64,000 nucleotides of DNA, taken from Methylophaga sp. (GTDB lineage Bacteria > Pseudomonadota > Gammaproteobacteria > Nitrosococcales > Methylophagaceae). The position numbers were made by a program, and so were the translations under genes. The stretch lies in the NCBI GenBank assembly GCA_002706095.1, contig PAJP01000025.1, positions 124,001 to 188,000 on the forward strand, read 5' to 3'. This document shows, one piece after another, positions 37,174 through 45,385 of the stretch (within the stretch, counting starts at the first letter, position 1; each line of letters opens with the position of its first letter). The notes beneath the pieces are model-generated. The model searched no databases. It was not told where the DNA came from and was given only the letters and a program-made list of their open reading frames with translations.

Positions 37174-37440
37174 TTACTTAACGGTCAGCTTACCTCGTTT
37201 GACTGGCTCATCATCAGCATACCAACTAATACGTATATCGATACGTTTGTGTTCATCATTTTCACTGGCGGTTAATTTTAAGTTCAGCAGATCTTTCGGC
37301 TGCATTACCATTTTTCCTTCATCATCGCTGAAGCTGAGTTCACCTTTCGCAATGCCTTTGGCAACGGCATCCAACATCCCTTGAATACTTTTCTTGTCCT
37401 GTAAGGACTCGTGTCGGAAACGTTTTTTTTGCTCGATCAT
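37174..37440 (-). CDS. amphi-Trp domain protein, last gene of the GAK-type operon
   Basis: This is an 88-residue protein. I start it at ATG 37440, which has GGAG 7 bases upstream, not at the GTG just before. It matches the amphi-Trp domain: an N-terminal basic helix (KKRFRHESLQDKKSI), a helix AVAKGIAKGELSF, then amphipathic strands ending in RIDIRISWY, whose Trp gives the name. In family catalogues this domain co-occurs with the ATP-grasp, HprK-like and CofD-like proteins of the uncharacterised GAK system (from memory of the TIGRFAM set). It starts 14 bp after the metallophosphoesterase gene, so it belongs to that operon. It could be the protein substrate or carrier of the system (inference). 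Confidence 0.85.
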   Translation of the reverse strand: MIEQKKRFRHESLQDKKSIQGMLDAVAKGIAKGELSFSDDEGKMVMQPKDLLNLKLTASENDEHKRIDIRISWYADDEPVKRGKLTVK

Positions 37441-37454
37441 CACTTACTCCATGA

Positions 37455-38819
37455 TTAGATTTTATAAAAATGTGGATGAAAGACCTTGGCAAATGGATAG
37501 TCTATGCTCAAACCGATAAGCTGTTGATCAGGGTGAATAATTGTCACGCCAGCCCCCACGCCTTCCAGCCCTTCTTTATGCCTTGAGTGACGATCAAGCG
37601 TCACATCACTTTCCACGTGAAGCAACCCGTGCTTCAAGACTAAACGTTGTCCATGTTTACGATTGATATGGCCCTGAACCAGGGCATGAATACCCTTACG
37701 GTTAATCTGCTTCACGCCTTTTCCACTGAGGGGTAAATCACTGTCACGGTATTTTGTTCGCATCGTATTAGCTAAGCTGCCGTAGTAAAACTGAAACAGA
37801 TCATTTTTCATTTGCTGACGAAACTGTTTATTCAGTTTTGCCACGCCTTCTTGTTCAATCACCTTACTGATTTCATCATCTAAGCCAGCATGCAGAAACA
37901 GAAAAGAACCACGACGATAACTGAGCTGCATACGTTTAAAAAACCAGGCATAGTCACCTTTGGGATGCAGAAATAACTGGCGACATTTCATTGCCGTGGC
38001 ATAGACATCCTGCATACTAAAACCGGCTTTTTTACAAGCCGCTTCAAAGTGATCATATTTTCGCTGCATCTTACGCAGCTCACGTTTAATGCCTGCGTGG
38101 GTCATCAATGTCTTGGCGTGTTGAGGAAATTGCTCAAACCAGTCGGCTCGTGGAAATAAGGCTTCTTTACAACTGGCTTCATCAGGAATCGACTTGGGTA
38201 ATTTTTTGCCTTTTAAATAACGCTGATGCACTTCACTCAATAACGGGATAACCTTTTCCCCCATCCGCACAAAGAAGTGCTCTGTGCTGGGATGACGAGG
38301 CAAGCTCATCGCGTAGATGCCCATATACAGACGCATATCATGGTTGCCGGCCAGCAGCTTTACCCGCGCGCCAGTATCAAAGAGTCGCTTAAGCGCATCC
38401 AGTAACGCTAAATTACTGGGCCCTTTATCAAGACAGTCACCGCCAATAATAAAAGTGGCCTCCCGTCCTAAGCGTGTCAATTTAAATTCCAGCAGGGCCT
38501 GATTGGTGATTTTGATACCCCCAGTCGCCACTAAGGAACGGATAAATGCTTCCGCGTCGGCATGAGGGTCGGCAATGAAAAAGATCGGACGCTTTGGCCA
38601 TGTCCACTTGCTGTATTGCTGAGCTGTCTTCATTGCTTTGGCAAAAGACGCTTCATCCTGATGAGCCTTTTGACCAGAATGCGCTTCCGAGACATTCCAG
38701 CATTCGGTAGCGGTAGGTAAGTGCTGCCAAACAGATTGGTGAGTTTTGTGCTTACTCACCAGGGTTTCAATAAACCGTTGGCTATGCTTGAGATGCTGCT
38801 GTTGTGACATCATTTTCAT
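37455..38819 (-). CDS. metallophosphoesterase, PPP-like calcineurin fold
   Basis: This is a 454-residue phosphoesterase. I start it at ATG 38819, immediately after the upstream stop; the frame extends to 38864 but would overlap the previous gene by 43 bp. The metal ligands are in order: FIADPHADAEAF, GGDCLDKGPSN, LLAGNHDMRL, a late HAGLD and VQGHINRKHG. The first motif has ADPHAD instead of the common GDxHG, a variation shared by some PPP-like bacterial enzymes. The ~85 residues before the metallophosphoesterase core have no recognised domain. Within the GAK-type operon it is one of three phosphoryl-removing enzymes. Confidence 0.9.
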   Translation of the reverse strand: MKMMSQQQHLKHSQRFIETLVSKHKTHQSVWQHLPTATECWNVSEAHSGQKAHQDEASFAKAMKTAQQYSKWTWPKRPIFFIADPHADAEAFIRSLVATGGIKITNQALLEFKLTRLGREATFIIGGDCLDKGPSNLALLDALKRLFDTGARVKLLAGNHDMRLYMGIYAMSLPRHPSTEHFFVRMGEKVIPLLSEVHQRYLKGKKLPKSIPDEASCKEALFPRADWFEQFPQHAKTLMTHAGIKRELRKMQRKYDHFEAACKKAGFSMQDVYATAMKCRQLFLHPKGDYAWFFKRMQLSYRRGSFLFLHAGLDDEISKVIEQEGVAKLNKQFRQQMKNDLFQFYYGSLANTMRTKYRDSDLPLSGKGVKQINRKGIHALVQGHINRKHGQRLVLKHGLLHVESDVTLDRHSRHKEGLEGVGAGVTIIHPDQQLIGLSIDYPFAKVFHPHFYKI

Positions 38820-38821
38820 AG

Positions 38822-39526
38822 TTAGTCCATGGTGGTAGCGGCAACAGATGAACGTTTTTTCCATTCACCACCCACGTGCTGCCAAGTGCCATCCTCGAAT
38901 AGTTCAAGAAAAATAGGCCGAGAGTGGTACATGCTGAGTTGAGCAATCTCTTCAGCATTGATGACCCCTAAATGATAAGCAGCATGTCTAAATGAAGCGC
39001 CATGCCCTACACATAATTTCAGCTGAGATTCGGCTTTTCTAGGTATATCCCGCATCTGCGTTTCAATATGCTTAGCTACCCGAGAGCCAGCTGTCATCAA
39101 TGACTCGGCACCTTGAAAAGGTAAACAAAAGTGACTATCAGACTTCCAACCTTCTGGTAATCGAGGATATCGAGGGTCAGTATTCACTATCTCCTCAATC
39201 TGTTTCACCGTGAGATTAGCTACAGAACCAACGCTTCGCTCAGCTAATGCATCGTACGCTTGACTGCACAGTGAGGAATCGAGTGCCGTCTCTAAAATCA
39301 GGCGGAAAATATCGGCGGTTTGCCATGATCGCAACATATTTGAGCAATCGATCTGCGGCACCAGTTGCCAGCCTTCTTGCAGAATAAGACGGCATAATTT
39401 CTGTGCCTCAATACACGCGTCGGTTTTACCCTGTTCCGTTAATGCGAAGGGCTGGTGCGCACTCGGTGTGTCAGCTAATTGCTCATAATCACCGTGCCGT
39501 ATAAAACCGAGAATTAAACGAGACAT
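38822..39526 (-). CDS. histidine phosphatase superfamily protein
   Basis: This 234-residue protein belongs to the phosphoglycerate mutase-like branch-1 histidine phosphatases. The catalytic His is in LGFIRHGDYEQ (residue ~11), the substrate Arg is in SNMLRSWQTA, the acid Glu is in ALAERSVG, and the second His is in KLCVGHGASFRHA. It may act on a phosphorylated small molecule or a phosphohistidine. It lies 1 bp after the Nudix frame and 2 bp before the phosphoesterase gene, deep within the operon. Unlike the SixA homologue in the same operon, it retains both catalytic histidines. Confidence 0.9.
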   Translation of the reverse strand: MSRLILGFIRHGDYEQLADTPSAHQPFALTEQGKTDACIEAQKLCRLILQEGWQLVPQIDCSNMLRSWQTADIFRLILETALDSSLCSQAYDALAERSVGSVANLTVKQIEEIVNTDPRYPRLPEGWKSDSHFCLPFQGAESLMTAGSRVAKHIETQMRDIPRKAESQLKLCVGHGASFRHAAYHLGVINAEEIAQLSMYHSRPIFLELFEDGTWQHVGGEWKKRSSVAATTMD

Positions 39527-39527
39527 A

Positions 39528-40175
39528 CTAAGCCTGCTTTTGAATGCATACAGTCAACACCCGGATCATATCGACAAGATCGGGCTTGTTTATGACTCTT
39601 GCTGCCGAGTCCACCACAAACCATTGGCGGCGTCGTTTTTCAGACTCCCACTGTGTATCATCAGCAAGTTCAGTTACCCGCATTGGATACACCTTGACCT
39701 CACAGATTCCTCCCCACTTGTTGTGCTGAAAGGAGCCCAATGCATCTTCATGAATATTGCCTATTACGCCAGCTTCTTCCATAGCTTCTTTTGAGGCGGA
39801 CTCAGTCGCAGACAGTCCCGGCTCAATAATGCCTTTAGGTATTCCCCACTTTTCTCTATCCTGCTTTGTGATTAAAAGTACCTGCAGCTGCTCATTATGC
39901 CAACGATAAGCCAGCACCCCAGACTGTTGGTAATAATAGGCTGGACGGTCACAATAATGCACTTGTCCATCACGTCTGACTGGGAATTTCTTAGGTAAAC
40001 TCTTAGGTCGGATGAACGCGTTTAGCGAGACTTTATTATCATCAAAATGTAGATGTGCCAACGTCGCTGTTGGTAAGACTTTATCATCACCAAAATCCGG
40101 TAATTGGTCTGCCACTAGCTCCACTAAGGCTATTTCCATCCCAGGATTATGACCAATGATGAGAGTTAAACCCAT
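39528..40175 (-). CDS. SixA C-terminal fragment fused to a Nudix hydrolase domain
   Basis: This 215-residue frame begins with LTLIIGHNPGMEIALVELV, which is the second catalytic His region of a SixA phosphatase, then continues into a Nudix domain (about 70-200). The Nudix box reads GIIEPGLSATES...KEAMEEAGV. The usual first Glu is Leu, but the metal-binding EExG core is intact, as in diphosphoinositol-polyphosphate-type Nudix enzymes. The first ~50 residues belong with the SixA start in the neighbouring frame; joined, they give a normal ~150-residue SixA. The ATG at 40175 overlaps the end of the upstream frame by 10 bp, so coupled reinitiation is possible. Either a frameshift mutation or a programmed shift separates them. 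Confidence 0.85.
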   Translation of the reverse strand: MGLTLIIGHNPGMEIALVELVADQLPDFGDDKVLPTATLAHLHFDDNKVSLNAFIRPKSLPKKFPVRRDGQVHYCDRPAYYYQQSGVLAYRWHNEQLQVLLITKQDREKWGIPKGIIEPGLSATESASKEAMEEAGVIGNIHEDALGSFQHNKWGGICEVKVYPMRVTELADDTQWESEKRRRQWFVVDSAARVINKPDLVDMIRVLTVCIQKQA

Positions 40176-40183
40176 ATTTTTTG
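40166..40183 (-). other. -1 frameshift junction at an A6 run in the sixA-nudix gene
   Basis: In mRNA sense the run is C-AAAAAA-T, read CAA AAA ATA TGG GTT TAA in the SixA frame. A single -1 slip of the Lys tRNA on AAA would continue as AAT ATG GGT into the SixA C-terminus and Nudix domain. The codon after AAA is the usually rare ATA. It is not a classical X-XXY-YYZ heptamer in the zero frame, so a programmed shift is possible but unproven. A sequencing or natural indel is the plain alternative. Confidence 0.6.
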
Positions 40184-40474
40184 TGCTTTAGCAATAATAT
40201 CCAGCACGGTAGCAGGACTGGCTTCATAGAGTTCTGGAATGGGCTTGATAAGACTAATGGGCAACCCTGCTGCTTTGAGGGTTTTTTCTGCCGTTTCCAT
40301 TGTGCGTTTTGCCGCTGACACCCAGACTTGTTCAGGGATGAATTGATGCGTTTTTAACCACTCCCCCATACGCTGAGCAGCGCGTTTTCCGCGATTATTT
40401 AAAGGCCTATCAAAGTCATCGACGTCGACGGACCAGTCTGATTTCGCATGTCTTAGGAGTAGTACATCACTCAT
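40166..40474 (-). CDS. SixA-type phosphohistidine phosphatase, N-terminal part (frame interrupted)
   Basis: These 102 residues give the start of a SixA-like histidine phosphatase: VLLLRHAKSDWS with the nucleophilic His8, NNRGKRAAQRMGEWL, and SAAKRTMETAEK. The frame stops after KAQKIWV, just before the strand and GHNPG motif that carry the second essential His. That motif lies in the -1 frame on the next coding region. A run of six As (complement of 40177-40182) directly precedes the stop region. The gene overlaps the HprK-like gene by 4 bp. As it stands the product lacks half of the catalytic pair. Confidence 0.85.
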   Translation of the reverse strand: MSDVLLLRHAKSDWSVDVDDFDRPLNNRGKRAAQRMGEWLKTHQFIPEQVWVSAAKRTMETAEKTLKAAGLPISLIKPIPELYEASPATVLDIIAKAQKIWV

Positions 40475-41565
40475 TGCTTTTCTTGACCTGCAGCCAGATA
40501 CAAAGCGGAAAGCTGCTGAAAATTGACCCCGCCCGTTGCCTCATACACAGCAATATTATCTAAAATGGCTAAGTAGGCGTCTTCATCCGCTTGATAATCG
40601 TCAGAAATGAACTCGCCTTTTACTGTTTGATAAAAAGGACCGGGTGACTTCAAAATGGCTTGTAATAAATCGCGACGTTGACGTAAATTCACTCGATGTA
40701 AGCTGACATCACTTTGATCATGACGAGACCAATTCAGAATCAACAAGGCTTTTAATGGCGCTTCAAACTGAAGACGACCTTCACCGTATAAAGCATCAAT
40801 ATCCACATCAAATTTTTGCTCTAATTCCCATAGTTCATCCTTAGGTAAACTCAGAAAAGTCTGTCTCAATTCATCAGTTAATAATGGTTGCAAGCGCTTA
40901 TTATTCACAATCGTCCCGGGATTAATGCGTGGTAATTTGGGAATACCATAAGCATCAACTCCTACAGATGTTTGTTTGATAAACAGACGATCATTACTTA
41001 AAAAAGTCGTGCCTTCTTGTTCAAGCATCTCCAGCATCAAGGTTGATTTACCGCCACCAGAAAAGCCTGCGACCGCTAAGGCCTCGCCCTCTCTCACGAC
41101 AGCGGCGGCATGACAAATTAACGCCTCTTTTTGCTGTAAACAGGTCATGAACTGGTTATTAATAAAGTTAATGACTTGATTATCATTTTCTAAACATGGC
41201 CCCATCGCAATCGCCGTATCCGTGCTTTGGTAAAACATCATGCCGGTTCTGACTTTACGGATAAGCCTGGCTTTATCTAAATTGATATAGCTGTCTTTTT
41301 TGCCTGTTTTACCAGGTTCTCGCTTCCAGTCGATAAAGGCATTAGAAAAGTCAGGCGTATCACACTCAATCGCTGTGACTTGATAGGTTGGTATCGATAC
41401 ATTGCTGACTATTGATGAAAAATAAGCTGATAACCGTGCCAATAGCTCAATAGAATTAGAACGTATCCGACAGCTGCAAAAACCAAGGTCGATGTCCAGT
41501 GCGTCTGGTAACGGCGGATAGTCCTTTAATAAAGACTCAATCTCATGTGGTATCTCATTCGTCAT
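40471..41565 (-). CDS. HprK-related kinase B, GAK system
   Basis: This 364-residue protein has an HPr kinase-like P-loop: AVAGFSGGGKSTLMLEML at about residues 165-182, followed by TFLSNDRLFI, the Walker B-type region. HprK phosphorylates Ser of HPr, but this family (labelled HprK-related kinase B, from memory TIGR04355) occurs beside an ATP-grasp and a CofD-like protein. Its substrate is unknown. No HPr or phosphotransferase system gene is in this window. It overlaps the ATP-grasp stop by 11 bp and the sixA start by 4 bp, so all are translationally coupled. Confidence 0.88.
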   Translation of the reverse strand: MTNEIPHEIESLLKDYPPLPDALDIDLGFCSCRIRSNSIELLARLSAYFSSIVSNVSIPTYQVTAIECDTPDFSNAFIDWKREPGKTGKKDSYINLDKARLIRKVRTGMMFYQSTDTAIAMGPCLENDNQVINFINNQFMTCLQQKEALICHAAAVVREGEALAVAGFSGGGKSTLMLEMLEQEGTTFLSNDRLFIKQTSVGVDAYGIPKLPRINPGTIVNNKRLQPLLTDELRQTFLSLPKDELWELEQKFDVDIDALYGEGRLQFEAPLKALLILNWSRHDQSDVSLHRVNLRQRRDLLQAILKSPGPFYQTVKGEFISDDYQADEDAYLAILDNIAVYEATGGVNFQQLSALYLAAGQEKQ

Positions 41566-42460
41566 GGCTATCTATCGTCTCTAGTACATGTTCGACATAT
41601 AAGGCAGCAGCATCAACTTCACAGCCTTCTTTTGCGCCCCTGAACCCACCAAATGCAGACACCTCAAATACAATTGGACCGTTATCGGTGATCGCCACAT
41701 CTACAGTAGTAAAATCCATGTTGAATAATGACTGGGCTTGAGTCGCCAGTTCAATAATTTCTGATGACGGTTCAAAAGCAGCATAACGACCGCCACTGTG
41801 AATCGTTGTATTCCATGCATCACTTTGTGATACCCGGGCATAAGTCCCCAGATAATTTCCTGCTAAAAAAACGAGCCCCAGATCTTGTCCTGACAGGTTC
41901 AATTTTTGTTGAATATACATCACCGGATTGACCTGTTTAAAATCGCTGACTTGCTGACGAATCTGAGAATCAGCCTGCTTGGCATTGATTAAAGTCATGC
42001 CACGGGCTTTAGTAGAAAATAAGGGTTTAAAAACAGCCTCACCATACTGTTTGACGGTATTTATAGCTTGCTCGACATCCTCTGTAATGCAGGTATTTGG
42101 CATCGGTATGCCAGCATTTTTGAGTGTTATCGTGCAGCTAAGGCGATCAATCAGACGTAACATCGATTCCACCCGACTGAATACTCTTACCCCTTGTTGC
42201 TCAGCTACCCGTAACATTTCCAGTCGATCTAAGGTACTGGGTGAATATTCTGCCGATATTTTCTTAACGATAAGACCATCTAGTTCACATAAATTAGTAC
42301 CACGATACATCAGTTGCATTCGCGTTAAATCGAGGGTCACTTCTGACATATCAATCACTAAACGATAGCCAGTTTTAGCCTGAACTGCATCCGCCAAGGT
42401 TTCAGTGGACCACTTACCAGGAATGCCTATCACGCCTACTTTTAGATCGTTACTCAACAA
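41555..42460 (-). CDS. GAK system ATP-grasp enzyme (RimK-like)
   Basis: This 301-residue ATP-grasp ligase resembles RimK-type enzymes, which join an amine to a carboxylate using ATP. Core elements are AVFKPLFSTKARGM (ATP-binding Lys and loop), YIQQKLNLSGQDLGLVFL, and the metal-binding end FTTVDVAITDNGPIVFEVSAFGG; the final Asn of the usual N-x-x motif is replaced in this family (EVSAF). The start is TTG, supported by AAGGAGAT at the right distance. It overlaps the HprK-like gene by 11 bp and the PhoU-APH gene by 11 bp. Substrates are unknown; formation of a peptide or amide bond on a phosphorylated acceptor is an inference. Confidence 0.88.
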   Translation of the reverse strand: MLSNDLKVGVIGIPGKWSTETLADAVQAKTGYRLVIDMSEVTLDLTRMQLMYRGTNLCELDGLIVKKISAEYSPSTLDRLEMLRVAEQQGVRVFSRVESMLRLIDRLSCTITLKNAGIPMPNTCITEDVEQAINTVKQYGEAVFKPLFSTKARGMTLINAKQADSQIRQQVSDFKQVNPVMYIQQKLNLSGQDLGLVFLAGNYLGTYARVSQSDAWNTTIHSGGRYAAFEPSSEIIELATQAQSLFNMDFTTVDVAITDNGPIVFEVSAFGGFRGAKEGCEVDAAALYVEHVLETIDSHDE

Positions 42461-44084
42461 ATATCTCCTTCACAGGTACAGAAAAACGATGAATCTGTTT
42501 TGGGTGGGTCGTCAACACTAGCTCTATTAGGTAACGGGCTCGATAAAACATTCGCTTAGCGAGTGCTTTATCCAAAATAAAGCGGGTGGAGCTGGCAAAC
42601 GCTCTGGCCAGACCTAATGCCAGCCTGATTTCAAAGGTGTTGTCTTGGTGTTGTTTAGCAAATCGACGGGCAAACCAATACATTTCGATAGCCATTTTCA
42701 TGATTTGTTTTCTTCGCTCTGAGTCTAAAATCTGCAGGCGATAATTTGATACCATGAAAATGGTGACATCCTGCACATAATCAGTGTATTTAGAACGATG
42801 TAAATCGATGAAATTAATGCGGTTTTCAATAGGGTCAAAAATAATATTATCCACATTAAAGTCGCCATGAATATACACTGAGAAAGGCGGTGGATATTGC
42901 TTCTCCAGCTGACGTGCTTGCTTAATGAGTGACTTCATTGATGGACAATCGTAATCGCCAATGTGACTGTTCGCGGCATCAAATTCTGGGTGAATTTTAT
43001 ACACATCAGCTAAGCGACTATCCATTTGCTGCATGAATAAAGCTGGACTGACTTTTTTACGTAAGGTCTCTGTCCATAAGGACTCTAAGGTCTTCTTTAG
43101 TGCTTTAAGCGCCTGTTTTTGCAGTTTTTCTGACTCATTCACAATCACTTTTTCAAGGGTATACCCAGGAAGGTGTTCGATTAATAACGCCGCTGATTCG
43201 CCACGCTTTTGGTAGGACAAAATTTTAGGCGCTAAGCCTGGATAGATACTATCCCAGCTGTTCAGCCCCTGCTTTTCTTCTTTTAGCTTTTGCTTCTGAC
43301 CGTCCTTATAGACCGCCATAAACCCCGTTTTCTCAGCGCCATTAGACAGACCTGAAATAGCCGTGCCAGAGCGAGTTTCAGCGATAGGGGTAATAGTGAC
43401 ATCACTATCACCTTTCTCCACATCACTGATCAAAGATTGAAATGAATAATACCGTTCAAAATTGATCGGCTGCCCCACATTAGCCGACACAATGGTTTCG
43501 CTTATACGTAATAAAGCGTCATCAAACTGTTTCATTTCATAAGCGACAAATAAGGCCTGCGTTAACTGTTTGGTCTGCGTCTGCTTTTTTAAAGCAGACA
43601 CATAGCGTTTGATTAATCGCTGATGACTACTGCGAAGTCCTTGATTGATTTGCTCAATATCCAGCGCAATGCTTGATTTCCTCTCAATCACCGCAGGTAG
43701 GATAAGTTTAATGGCTTGTCTGACCTTTTTTACGATAGCGATAAAGGCTTTACTCATCAGCGCTTGTGCATCATCAATCTGTTCTGATTGGGTAATACAA
43801 TGACGACATATTTCAGCAATGCGCTCAATATCTGTGGCAATGAACTCAATACAGCGCAGACAGAATTTATCGGAATCATGCTCAACACCAGCGGCAATAC
43901 GGTTAACCGTTGCCGTATGAATACGTGTTTTTAAATTATAGGCATACCCAGCACGATCACGGACTTTGCGTGCCAAAGACGCAGAAGGATTTCTGTAATA
44001 ACTCAACAGTGTGGCTAGCTGGGCATCAATCTCGACACAGAGAAACTGCAAATTTTCTTTTATCTCTGTTGGTATTTTTTTCAT
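42450..44084 (-). CDS. PhoU-like / aminoglycoside phosphotransferase-like kinase fusion
   Basis: This is a 544-residue two-part protein and the first gene of the GAK-type operon. The N-terminal ~230 residues are all-helical and resemble PhoU: ARKVRDRAGYAYNLKTRI and FIATDIERIAEICRHC recall the PhoU repeat with its basic and metal-binding helices. The C-terminal ~270 residues are an APH/choline kinase-type fold: IEHLPGYTLEKV, the catalytic loop YIHGDFNVDNIIFD and the metal-binding NFIDLHRS. PhoU domains report phosphate status, so the kinase may be phosphate- or polyphosphate-linked (inference). The APH domain probably phosphorylates a small hydroxyl compound. Confidence 0.8.
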   Translation of the reverse strand: MKKIPTEIKENLQFLCVEIDAQLATLLSYYRNPSASLARKVRDRAGYAYNLKTRIHTATVNRIAAGVEHDSDKFCLRCIEFIATDIERIAEICRHCITQSEQIDDAQALMSKAFIAIVKKVRQAIKLILPAVIERKSSIALDIEQINQGLRSSHQRLIKRYVSALKKQTQTKQLTQALFVAYEMKQFDDALLRISETIVSANVGQPINFERYYSFQSLISDVEKGDSDVTITPIAETRSGTAISGLSNGAEKTGFMAVYKDGQKQKLKEEKQGLNSWDSIYPGLAPKILSYQKRGESAALLIEHLPGYTLEKVIVNESEKLQKQALKALKKTLESLWTETLRKKVSPALFMQQMDSRLADVYKIHPEFDAANSHIGDYDCPSMKSLIKQARQLEKQYPPPFSVYIHGDFNVDNIIFDPIENRINFIDLHRSKYTDYVQDVTIFMVSNYRLQILDSERRKQIMKMAIEMYWFARRFAKQHQDNTFEIRLALGLARAFASSTRFILDKALAKRMFYRARYLIELVLTTHPKQIHRFSVPVKEIFVE

Positions 44085-44191
44085 GAAGTTATGGGCATCT
44101 TAAAGTCACTGCAGTCTAGCAAAACAACTCTGAACAGTGTGTGAAACTATTGTTACACTATGCCAACACACTTATTTGCTTGGACAAGTTG

Positions 44192-45385
44192 ATGACCAAA
44201 ATCCGCGTTTGTCGAACGGCATCTATCCCCGACCCACTCAGAATTAGCCGCTATCAAAAGATACCCGAGCTGGGACCCAGAATTTTGTTCTTCAGTGGTG
44301 GTACCGCATTAACGGGGCTATCACGAGAGTTGAAAAAATTCACCCATAACTCCATTCATTTTGTCAGCCCTTTCGATTCAGGCGGTAGCTCAGCTAAGCT
44401 ACGACATGCCTTCGATATGCCTGCTATTGGTGATTTACGCAGTCGCTTAATGGCCTTAGCTGATGAGACCGTGTTAGGGCATCCTGAAATCTATCGACTG
44501 TTCAGTTACCGTTTCTCAGTCACTGAGAATCAAGAGCGGCTTAAGCGACGACTACAGAATATGGTGAATGGCAAAGATGATTTAATCAATGACATTGCCA
44601 ACCCTATGCGTAAGTTGATTTGTAACCATCTGGGTTATTTTTATCAGTCCATGCCCAAGGACTTTGATCTTCGTGGCGCCAGTATTGGTAATTTAATCTT
44701 GGCTGGTGGCTATCTGAATAATCATAAAGATTTGGAACCCATCGTTTTTTTATTCTCAAAATTGGTGCATGTATTAGGTACAGTGAGAACCATCACCAAT
44801 GATGATTACCACCTCTCTGTCGAGCTAGAGAATGGAGAAATTATTCATGGACAACATTTAATTACAGGCAAGGAAGTCGCCCCTATTTTATCTCCCATCA
44901 AGCACATTCACTTGAGCGAAACGTTAAATGGTAGTCGTCCCACCGAGACAAAGTTACGTAAACGAAACCGTGGTTTATTTGAAGATGCAGATTTAATCTG
45001 TTACCCACCGGGCAGCTTTTATACCAGTCTGCTGGCCAACTTACTGCCGACCGGTGTGGGCAAAGCCATCGCTAACAATGGCTGCCCCAAAGTGTTCGTC
45101 CCTAATCTCAATAGCGATCCAGAACAGCTTGGCATGACGTTACAAGACTCACTCATGACCATCATCAAATATATTCAAGAAGATATCACTGGTGATGCTC
45201 CAGCCAACACCGTATTGAATTATTTAATGGTGGATACCAAAAATGGACAATATCCTGGCGGGATTCCAACAGACTTATTGCAAGAGCTCAATATTGAACT
45301 CATCGACGTTAAGCTAATCGATAAACGTCATGATAAAACATATGATAATAAACGCTTAGTTTCTGCTTTACTGTCGCTTACCTAA
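44192..45385 (+). CDS. GAK system CofD-like protein
   Basis: This is a protein of about 397 residues. I start it at ATG 44192; the frame runs back to a GTG at 44141 without a better signal. It belongs to the CofD/YvcK fold: RILFFSGGTALTGLSREL is the nucleotide-binding start, then FVSPFDSGGSSAKLRHAF, GDLRSRLMAL, and the late DLICYPPGSFYTSLLANLL. CofD itself transfers a phospholactyl group in coenzyme F420 synthesis, whereas YvcK-type relatives bind UDP sugars. This longer, distinct branch is listed with the GAK system (from memory TIGR04357). It is divergent from the PhoU-APH operon over about 107 bp, so one control region may serve both. Confidence 0.87.
   Translation: MTKIRVCRTASIPDPLRISRYQKIPELGPRILFFSGGTALTGLSRELKKFTHNSIHFVSPFDSGGSSAKLRHAFDMPAIGDLRSRLMALADETVLGHPEIYRLFSYRFSVTENQERLKRRLQNMVNGKDDLINDIANPMRKLICNHLGYFYQSMPKDFDLRGASIGNLILAGGYLNNHKDLEPIVFLFSKLVHVLGTVRTITNDDYHLSVELENGEIIHGQHLITGKEVAPILSPIKHIHLSETLNGSRPTETKLRKRNRGLFEDADLICYPPGSFYTSLLANLLPTGVGKAIANNGCPKVFVPNLNSDPEQLGMTLQDSLMTIIKYIQEDITGDAPANTVLNYLMVDTKNGQYPGGIPTDLLQELNIELIDVKLIDKRHDKTYDNKRLVSALLSLT

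Follow-up and report, generated by a model that had tools for sequence, protein, structure and literature searches.

A tightly packed operon of Methylophaga sp. is a genuine member of GAK, a named but uncharacterised system. It lies in positions 124,001 to 188,000 of contig PAJP01000025.1 (assembly GCA_002706095.1), a stretch of 64,000 nucleotides that is called the window here. The conserved core of the system consists of a PhoU-APH kinase (a PhoU domain fused to an APH-type kinase), the HprK-related kinase B (HprKB), a RimK/MptN-type ATP-grasp ligase and the small amphi-Trp protein. In Proteobacteria this core is accompanied by a dedicated phosphoesterase set, namely a metallophosphoesterase, the histidine phosphatase HP2 and a SixA-Nudix protein, and in several lineages phosphate and polyphosphate genes recur as neighbours. 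The operon may encode a PhoU-gated kinase/ligase modification module that is reversed by the phosphoesterases and serves phosphate or polyphosphate homeostasis, a tentative reading to which a probability of about 0.35 is assigned. No paper on the GAK system, amphi-Trp, the HprK-related kinase or its CofD-like protein was found in the open literature, outside of which lie most subscription papers and all preprints.

The composition of the system was derived from 100 loci: the 80 with the closest CofD proteins (the best 80 of 447), regions of genomes found by family search (L035–L039) and 15 further regions. Two loci with a distant CofD match and no GAK operon (L040, L041) were excluded, and the sampling is biased toward proteins resembling the CofD of the window. 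The ligase and HprKB are both present at 49/100 loci. Among these 49, PhoU-APH is found at 48 (a contig end truncates the remaining one, L164), amphi-Trp at 47, the metallophosphoesterase at 44, HP2 at 43, CofD at 35 and SixA-Nudix at 34. Contig ends interrupt L083, L111 and L164; the non-proteobacterial loci L106, L112 and L117 carry no phosphatases; HP2 is missing at L165, and SixA-Nudix in Zhongshania, Roseibium/Labrenzia and some others. At 24 loci there is also a separate second Nudix gene, as a rule immediately upstream of PhoU-APH. A preliminary description, made from the letters of the window, had proposed a wider system, a claim that would fail if PhoU-APH, Nudix and phosphatase genes were not conserved beside the core. 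The counts show them conserved there, and a system wider than the curated definition of GAK is supported.

Whole-genome surveys, which are less biased, agree. In 198 Desulfobacterota genomes, HprKB exceeds its cut-off in 15, PhoU-APH is present in 15 and both are present in 14, with one exception each way (G536, G576; Fisher p 2e-19, relatedness ignored). PhoU-APH belongs to the GAK core and is covered by no curated GAK model. Among 398 Pseudomonadota genomes, the metallophosphoesterase occurs in 15 (E ≤ 1e-10) and adjoins HprKB in 15/15; in this sample it is found only beside the GAK core. These 15 comprise ten newly fetched genomes (L216 and L218 incomplete) and G000, G014, G050, G142 and G158. 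A contig labelled as a Halobacteria archaeon (L083) also carries a proteobacterial-type GAK operon and is probably mis-binned.

The operon in the window

The genes are listed below with their scores and, for the curated NCBIfam models, the cut-offs.

37174–37443, minus strand: amphi-Trp protein, 89 amino acids (TIGR04354, 63.2 bits, cut-off 31)
37455–38864, minus strand: calcineurin-like metallophosphoesterase, 469 amino acids (Pfam Metallophos, 33.8 bits)
38822–39526, minus strand: histidine phosphatase HP2, 234 amino acids (Pfam His_Phos_1, 41.3 bits)
39528–40175, minus strand: split SixA-Nudix gene, 3' part with the end of SixA and the Nudix domain (Pfam NUDIX, 33.9 bits)
40166–40474, minus strand: split SixA-Nudix gene, 5' part (Pfam His_Phos_1, 48.2 bits)
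40471–41565, minus strand: HprK-related kinase B (HprK_rel_B, TIGR04355, 361 bits, cut-off 200)
41555–42460, minus strand: GAK ATP-grasp ligase, RimK/MptN-like (grasp_GAK, TIGR04356, 465.6 bits, cut-off 300)
42450–44084, minus strand: PhoU-APH kinase, PhoU domain fused to an APH-type kinase (Pfam APH; PhoU profile match)
44085–44140, no strand: short divergent intergenic region without a Pho-box-like site
44141–45385, start probably at 44194, plus strand: GAK CofD-like protein (CofD_rel_GAK, TIGR04357, 530.6 bits, cut-off 340)

Four curated families exceed their cut-offs by large margins, with grasp_GAK, HprK_rel_B and amphi-Trp together in one operon, so the assignment to GAK made in the preliminary description holds. 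Its word "complete" calls for caution: the fifth family, the XXXCH protein (TIGR04358), had no match among the 10 window proteins scanned (the remaining genome was not searched) and is present at another locus, L198. The eight open reading frames (ORFs) of the minus strand are spaced, from PhoU-APH to amphi-Trp, by -11, -11, -4, -10, +1, -43 and +11 bases. The positions and tight spacing given earlier therefore stand, but the count of eight separate genes does not: because the SixA and Nudix ORFs are one gene, the ancestral number is seven. The divergent CofD-like gene was described correctly, as its plus-strand ORF and TIGR04357 match confirm. To judge from the N-termini of homologues, its translation probably begins at the ATG in position 44194 rather than at the GTG in position 44141, and its closest named relative is that of Methylophaga aminisulfidivorans HyVt-380 (93% identity).

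The single SixA-Nudix gene, previously taken for two (40166–40474 and 39528–40175), is one uninterrupted ORF in relatives, mostly of 315–354 amino acids. In the window the frame changes at an A-run near 40175–40185; in G428, which is from the same species, the gene is broken at a different site (L163:6054–6999), and in G425, another genome of the genus, it is intact. Programmed frameshifting was rejected because the frame is continuous in relatives and breaks at another point in G428. Across 247 codons, the copies of the window and G428 differ by 6 nonsynonymous and 5 synonymous substitutions, a weak hint of possibly relaxed constraint. With so few differences, the break may be either real decay or an assembly or sequencing error. 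Within the genus, 3/24 genomes, including that of the window, have a strong match, so the distribution of the gene is patchy. In the alignment, L062 and L103 show degenerate catalytic residues of SixA, and in the Nudix box L or M stands at the place of the first conserved Glu. The 5' part alone reaches 35 bits against the curated SixA cut-off of 74.5, and the best curated match of the Nudix domain is MutT1 (22.6 bits, cut-off 475). The earlier label of a diphosphoinositol-like Nudix is accordingly not supported. Tubeworm symbionts (L075, L110), among others, have breaks in other genes of the operon.

The remaining proteins retain their family motifs. The PhoU domain of PhoU-APH falls just below the Pfam cut-off in the window (22.4 vs 23.5) and lies above it in homologues of G494, G529, G630 and G713. 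The family profile matches a solved PhoU (E 1.4e-14, residues 18–220), and K260, H406, D408, N413 and D427 are invariant in 16 sequences. HprKB has an invariant P-loop and NDR motif and is joined to the ligase in a read-through frame at L199. The ligase itself matches Pfam RimK (52.2 bits, cut-off 21) and a solved RimK (E 5e-21). Invariant residues are likewise found in the metallophosphoesterase (the metal motifs DxH, GGDCxDKG and AGNHD), in HP2 (R10, H11, H175) and in amphi-Trp (F9, S13, Q15, G34, P49 and W74 in 23 sequences). The AlphaFold2 (AF2) model of amphi-Trp has one helix and four strands, with a predicted local distance difference test (pLDDT) score of 84.5. An HPr-like or other known fold was rejected for this protein, since a Foldseek search of the PDB was empty at E ≤ 0.001; a profile search of PDB sequences gave chance-level matches only. 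A role of amphi-Trp as a RimK-type C-terminal acceptor was rejected as well because its C-terminus is not conserved; for the same reason, a tag formed by ligation to that end is not favoured. Amphi-Trp is a candidate small partner or adaptor, and a candidate acceptor.

CofD and the A3 family

CofD is dispensable to the operon, since 10/15 of the metallophosphoesterase-bearing Pseudomonadota genomes have no CofD_GAK match. Conversely, it stands alone at 43/100 loci, and many genomes carry it without grasp_GAK or HprKB (e.g., L035, L046–L049, L060, L076, L101), so the subfamily has its own role. In 33 genomes chosen mostly for carrying CofD_GAK, grasp_GAK is below cut-off in 17, and none of the 15 tested among these has HprKB above cut-off. 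The preliminary description had treated CofD as a necessary part, which these counts contradict.

The phosphoesterases are not universal either, contrary to what the four phosphoryl-cleaving domains of the window had been taken to imply. No metallophosphoesterase, HP2 or SixA-Nudix was found in 19 loci from Desulfobacterota and Zixibacteria, where the usual order is A3 - amphi-Trp - PhoU-APH - grasp - HprKB - CofD - second amphi-Trp, with the XXXCH protein in some. The A3 family is present in 16 of these 19 loci and absent from every proteobacterial locus searched; it occurs in 13/198 Desulfobacterota genomes, all of them inside the PhoU-APH set. As far as gene content indicates, A3 stands in for the phosphatases in both phyla. 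It has no match above cut-off in Pfam or NCBIfam. Its invariant motifs (HWHPE, PTQHN, GxE, IPHPEQ, GDDxH) follow the motif order of PHP phosphoesterases, and a PHP-like phosphoesterase is a motif-level guess. Its profile reached E. coli RNase AM with a probability of 0.6% and nothing meaningful in the PDB, and the AF2 model (pLDDT 36) gave the PHP identity no support.

Phosphate and polyphosphate neighbourhood

Genes recurring beside the operon encode a Na/Pi symporter, PhoU, PstC, CHAD and Ppx. Their frequency was assessed in 60 operon genomes, hand-picked from about 71 then known; outside the set were L042, L043 and L082 (short contigs) and G425, G428, G498, G500, G504, G536, G588 and G651, among which G588 has a PhoU gene (L207). 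A PhoU or CHAD gene lies within 10 kilobases (kb) of the operon in 14/60 genomes against 1.84 expected, this expectation being an upper bound from whole-genome PhoU and CHAD domain counts at a 10 kb reach. For CHAD alone, 7 cases were observed against 0.31 expected. Relatedness inflates the significance of both counts, whose cases span about five to six lineages. The 14 cases are G014, L055, L058, L063, L067, L073, L075, L078, L083, L084, L103, L110, G547 and G713; in G547 (L203, Desulfobacterota) pstCAB-phoU stands beside the operon, and in G713 (Zixibacteria) a PhoU gene.

CHAD proteins are described as binding polyphosphate (PMC6537752) and as localising to polyphosphate granules (PMC9239181). 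In a family outside the 60 genomes, a CHAD gene and a ParA-like ATPase gene form a pair that lies within the operon or immediately upstream of it (L219, L222). This pairing was seen at 9/10 loci near GAK genes (L055, L058, L063, L067, L083, L091, L103, L219, L222) and at 10/16 CHAD loci fetched away from GAK operons (L225, L229, L231–L238). The observations suggest a granule-positioning pair; a search of the open literature gave no paper that joins the ParA family with polyphosphate and CHAD. At L091, SixA-Nudix and CofD stand beside CHAD-ParA and phoU-pst, in a genome in which no HprKB was found. At L219:10106-11797, an AAA-ATPase gene and a small, presumably RloB-like gene lie between the metallophosphoesterase and the CHAD-ParA pair.

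Pho-box-like sites, defined by 14 fixed positions of the consensus and allowing up to 3 mismatches, precede the operon at 6/35 loci vs 8/290 control gaps (L111 was excluded because of a 6.6 kb gap). They are found in Marinobacterium, Zhongshania and L062.

Proposed function and known systems

The modification module proposed above would act in the cytosol. Both kinases would phosphorylate one shared acceptor, presented by or bound to amphi-Trp, and the ligase would add an amino acid to it, by family analogy perhaps glutamate. The PhoU domain would gate the APH kinase according to phosphate status, the phosphoesterases would strip or recycle phosphorylated forms, and CofD might perform an optional further transfer or act alone. 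A bolder and unlikely version makes GAK a polyphosphate-granule system: the PhoU-gated kinase, the HprK-like kinase and the ATP-grasp ligase would install reversible phospho and aminoacyl modifications on a granule acceptor at amphi-Trp, and CHAD-ParA would position the granules. If true, phosphate storage in bacteria would be subject to a new level of covalent regulation.

Several observations weigh against a role of the module in phosphate homeostasis. The genome of the window has no CHAD gene and carries its PhoU gene on another contig, no phosphate gene neighbours the operon in the window, and its promoter has no Pho-box-like site. The phosphate or polyphosphate hint of the preliminary description is thus supported by the neighbourhood in other lineages, but not by that of the window or its promoter. 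Moreover, no PhoU or CHAD neighbour was seen within 10 kb in 46/60 genomes, CHAD was found in 0/13 Desulfobacterota/Zixibacteria genomes counted, the cases that do exist are partly related to each other, and amphi-Trp lacks a fold match in the PDB.

Biosynthesis is a possible though somewhat doubtful alternative. The operon would make a phosphorylated, amino-acylated small molecule, such as a coenzyme-like or storage compound, with the phosphoesterases maturing or proofreading intermediates and amphi-Trp as carrier. A CofD-type transferase and an MptN-type ligase would work as in F420 and methanopterin synthesis; MptN is the closest curated model of the ligase besides its own (151.6 bits, against 106.9 for the RimK family), and CofD is transcribed divergently beside the operon at many loci and fused to HprKB in L106. 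However, the 10/15 operon genomes without CofD_GAK show that a CofD step is not essential, the protein is closer to YvcK-type proteins (123 bits) than to the F420 CofD within the searches made, and beyond the phosphate set no transport or other biosynthetic genes recur beside the operon.

That YvcK resemblance (E ~1e-29 to solved YvcK-type proteins), together with an HprK-like kinase adjoining a small conserved protein with an invariant S13, would fit a switch of the HPr-kinase/YvcK kind that acts on central carbon or cell-wall metabolism, independent of phosphate and with amphi-Trp as the phosphorylated regulator. This is improbable: the HprKB profile reaches a solved HprK at E 0.055 only, neither profile nor fold comparison matches amphi-Trp to HPr, and the recurrent neighbours are phosphate genes, not phosphotransferase system genes. 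Least credible is nucleotide house-cleaning, in which the phosphoesterases would act on Ap4A and nucleoside triphosphates while riding with the kinase/ligase core. The metallophosphoesterase profile does match ApaH (E 0.0019), and ApaH and MutT1 are the best, if weak, curated matches. Nevertheless, the curated cut-offs for ApaH (26.6 bits vs 176), SixA, cobC and MutT1 are all missed by the window phosphoesterases, the catalytic residues of SixA vary (L062, L103), and the metallophosphoesterase was found only beside the GAK core (15/15).

Whichever function applies, the boundary of GAK is redrawn, with PhoU-APH in the core, a specific phosphoesterase set and an optional CofD, and its proteobacterial form is defined more fully here than by the curated models. 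In two other phyla, the place of the phosphatases is taken by a family without a Pfam or NCBIfam model. The phosphate and polyphosphate neighbourhood is a concrete lead to function, testable in cultured marine bacteria because it gives a place to look.

Compared with known systems, the operon shares with the NCBIfam definition of GAK four of its five families; it differs in that no GAK model exists for PhoU-APH, the metallophosphoesterase, HP2 or SixA-Nudix and in that CofD is separable in many genomes. From PhoU regulators and APH kinases it takes both domains, with the kinase motifs kept, but as a fusion that occurs almost only with HprKB in the 198 Desulfobacterota. The ligase belongs to the same ATP-grasp family as the RimK/MptN alpha-L-glutamate ligases, yet falls below every curated RimK/MptN cut-off, and the genome also encodes paralogues that reach 97 and 80 bits against grasp_GAK. 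CofD has the fold family of YvcK/CofD but forms its own subfamily, below the CofD_related cut-off of 196 bits. With the CHAD proteins (phosins), which are missing from the genome of the window, the tie is one of gene neighbourhood alone: in several lineages their genes adjoin GAK operons or lie inside them.

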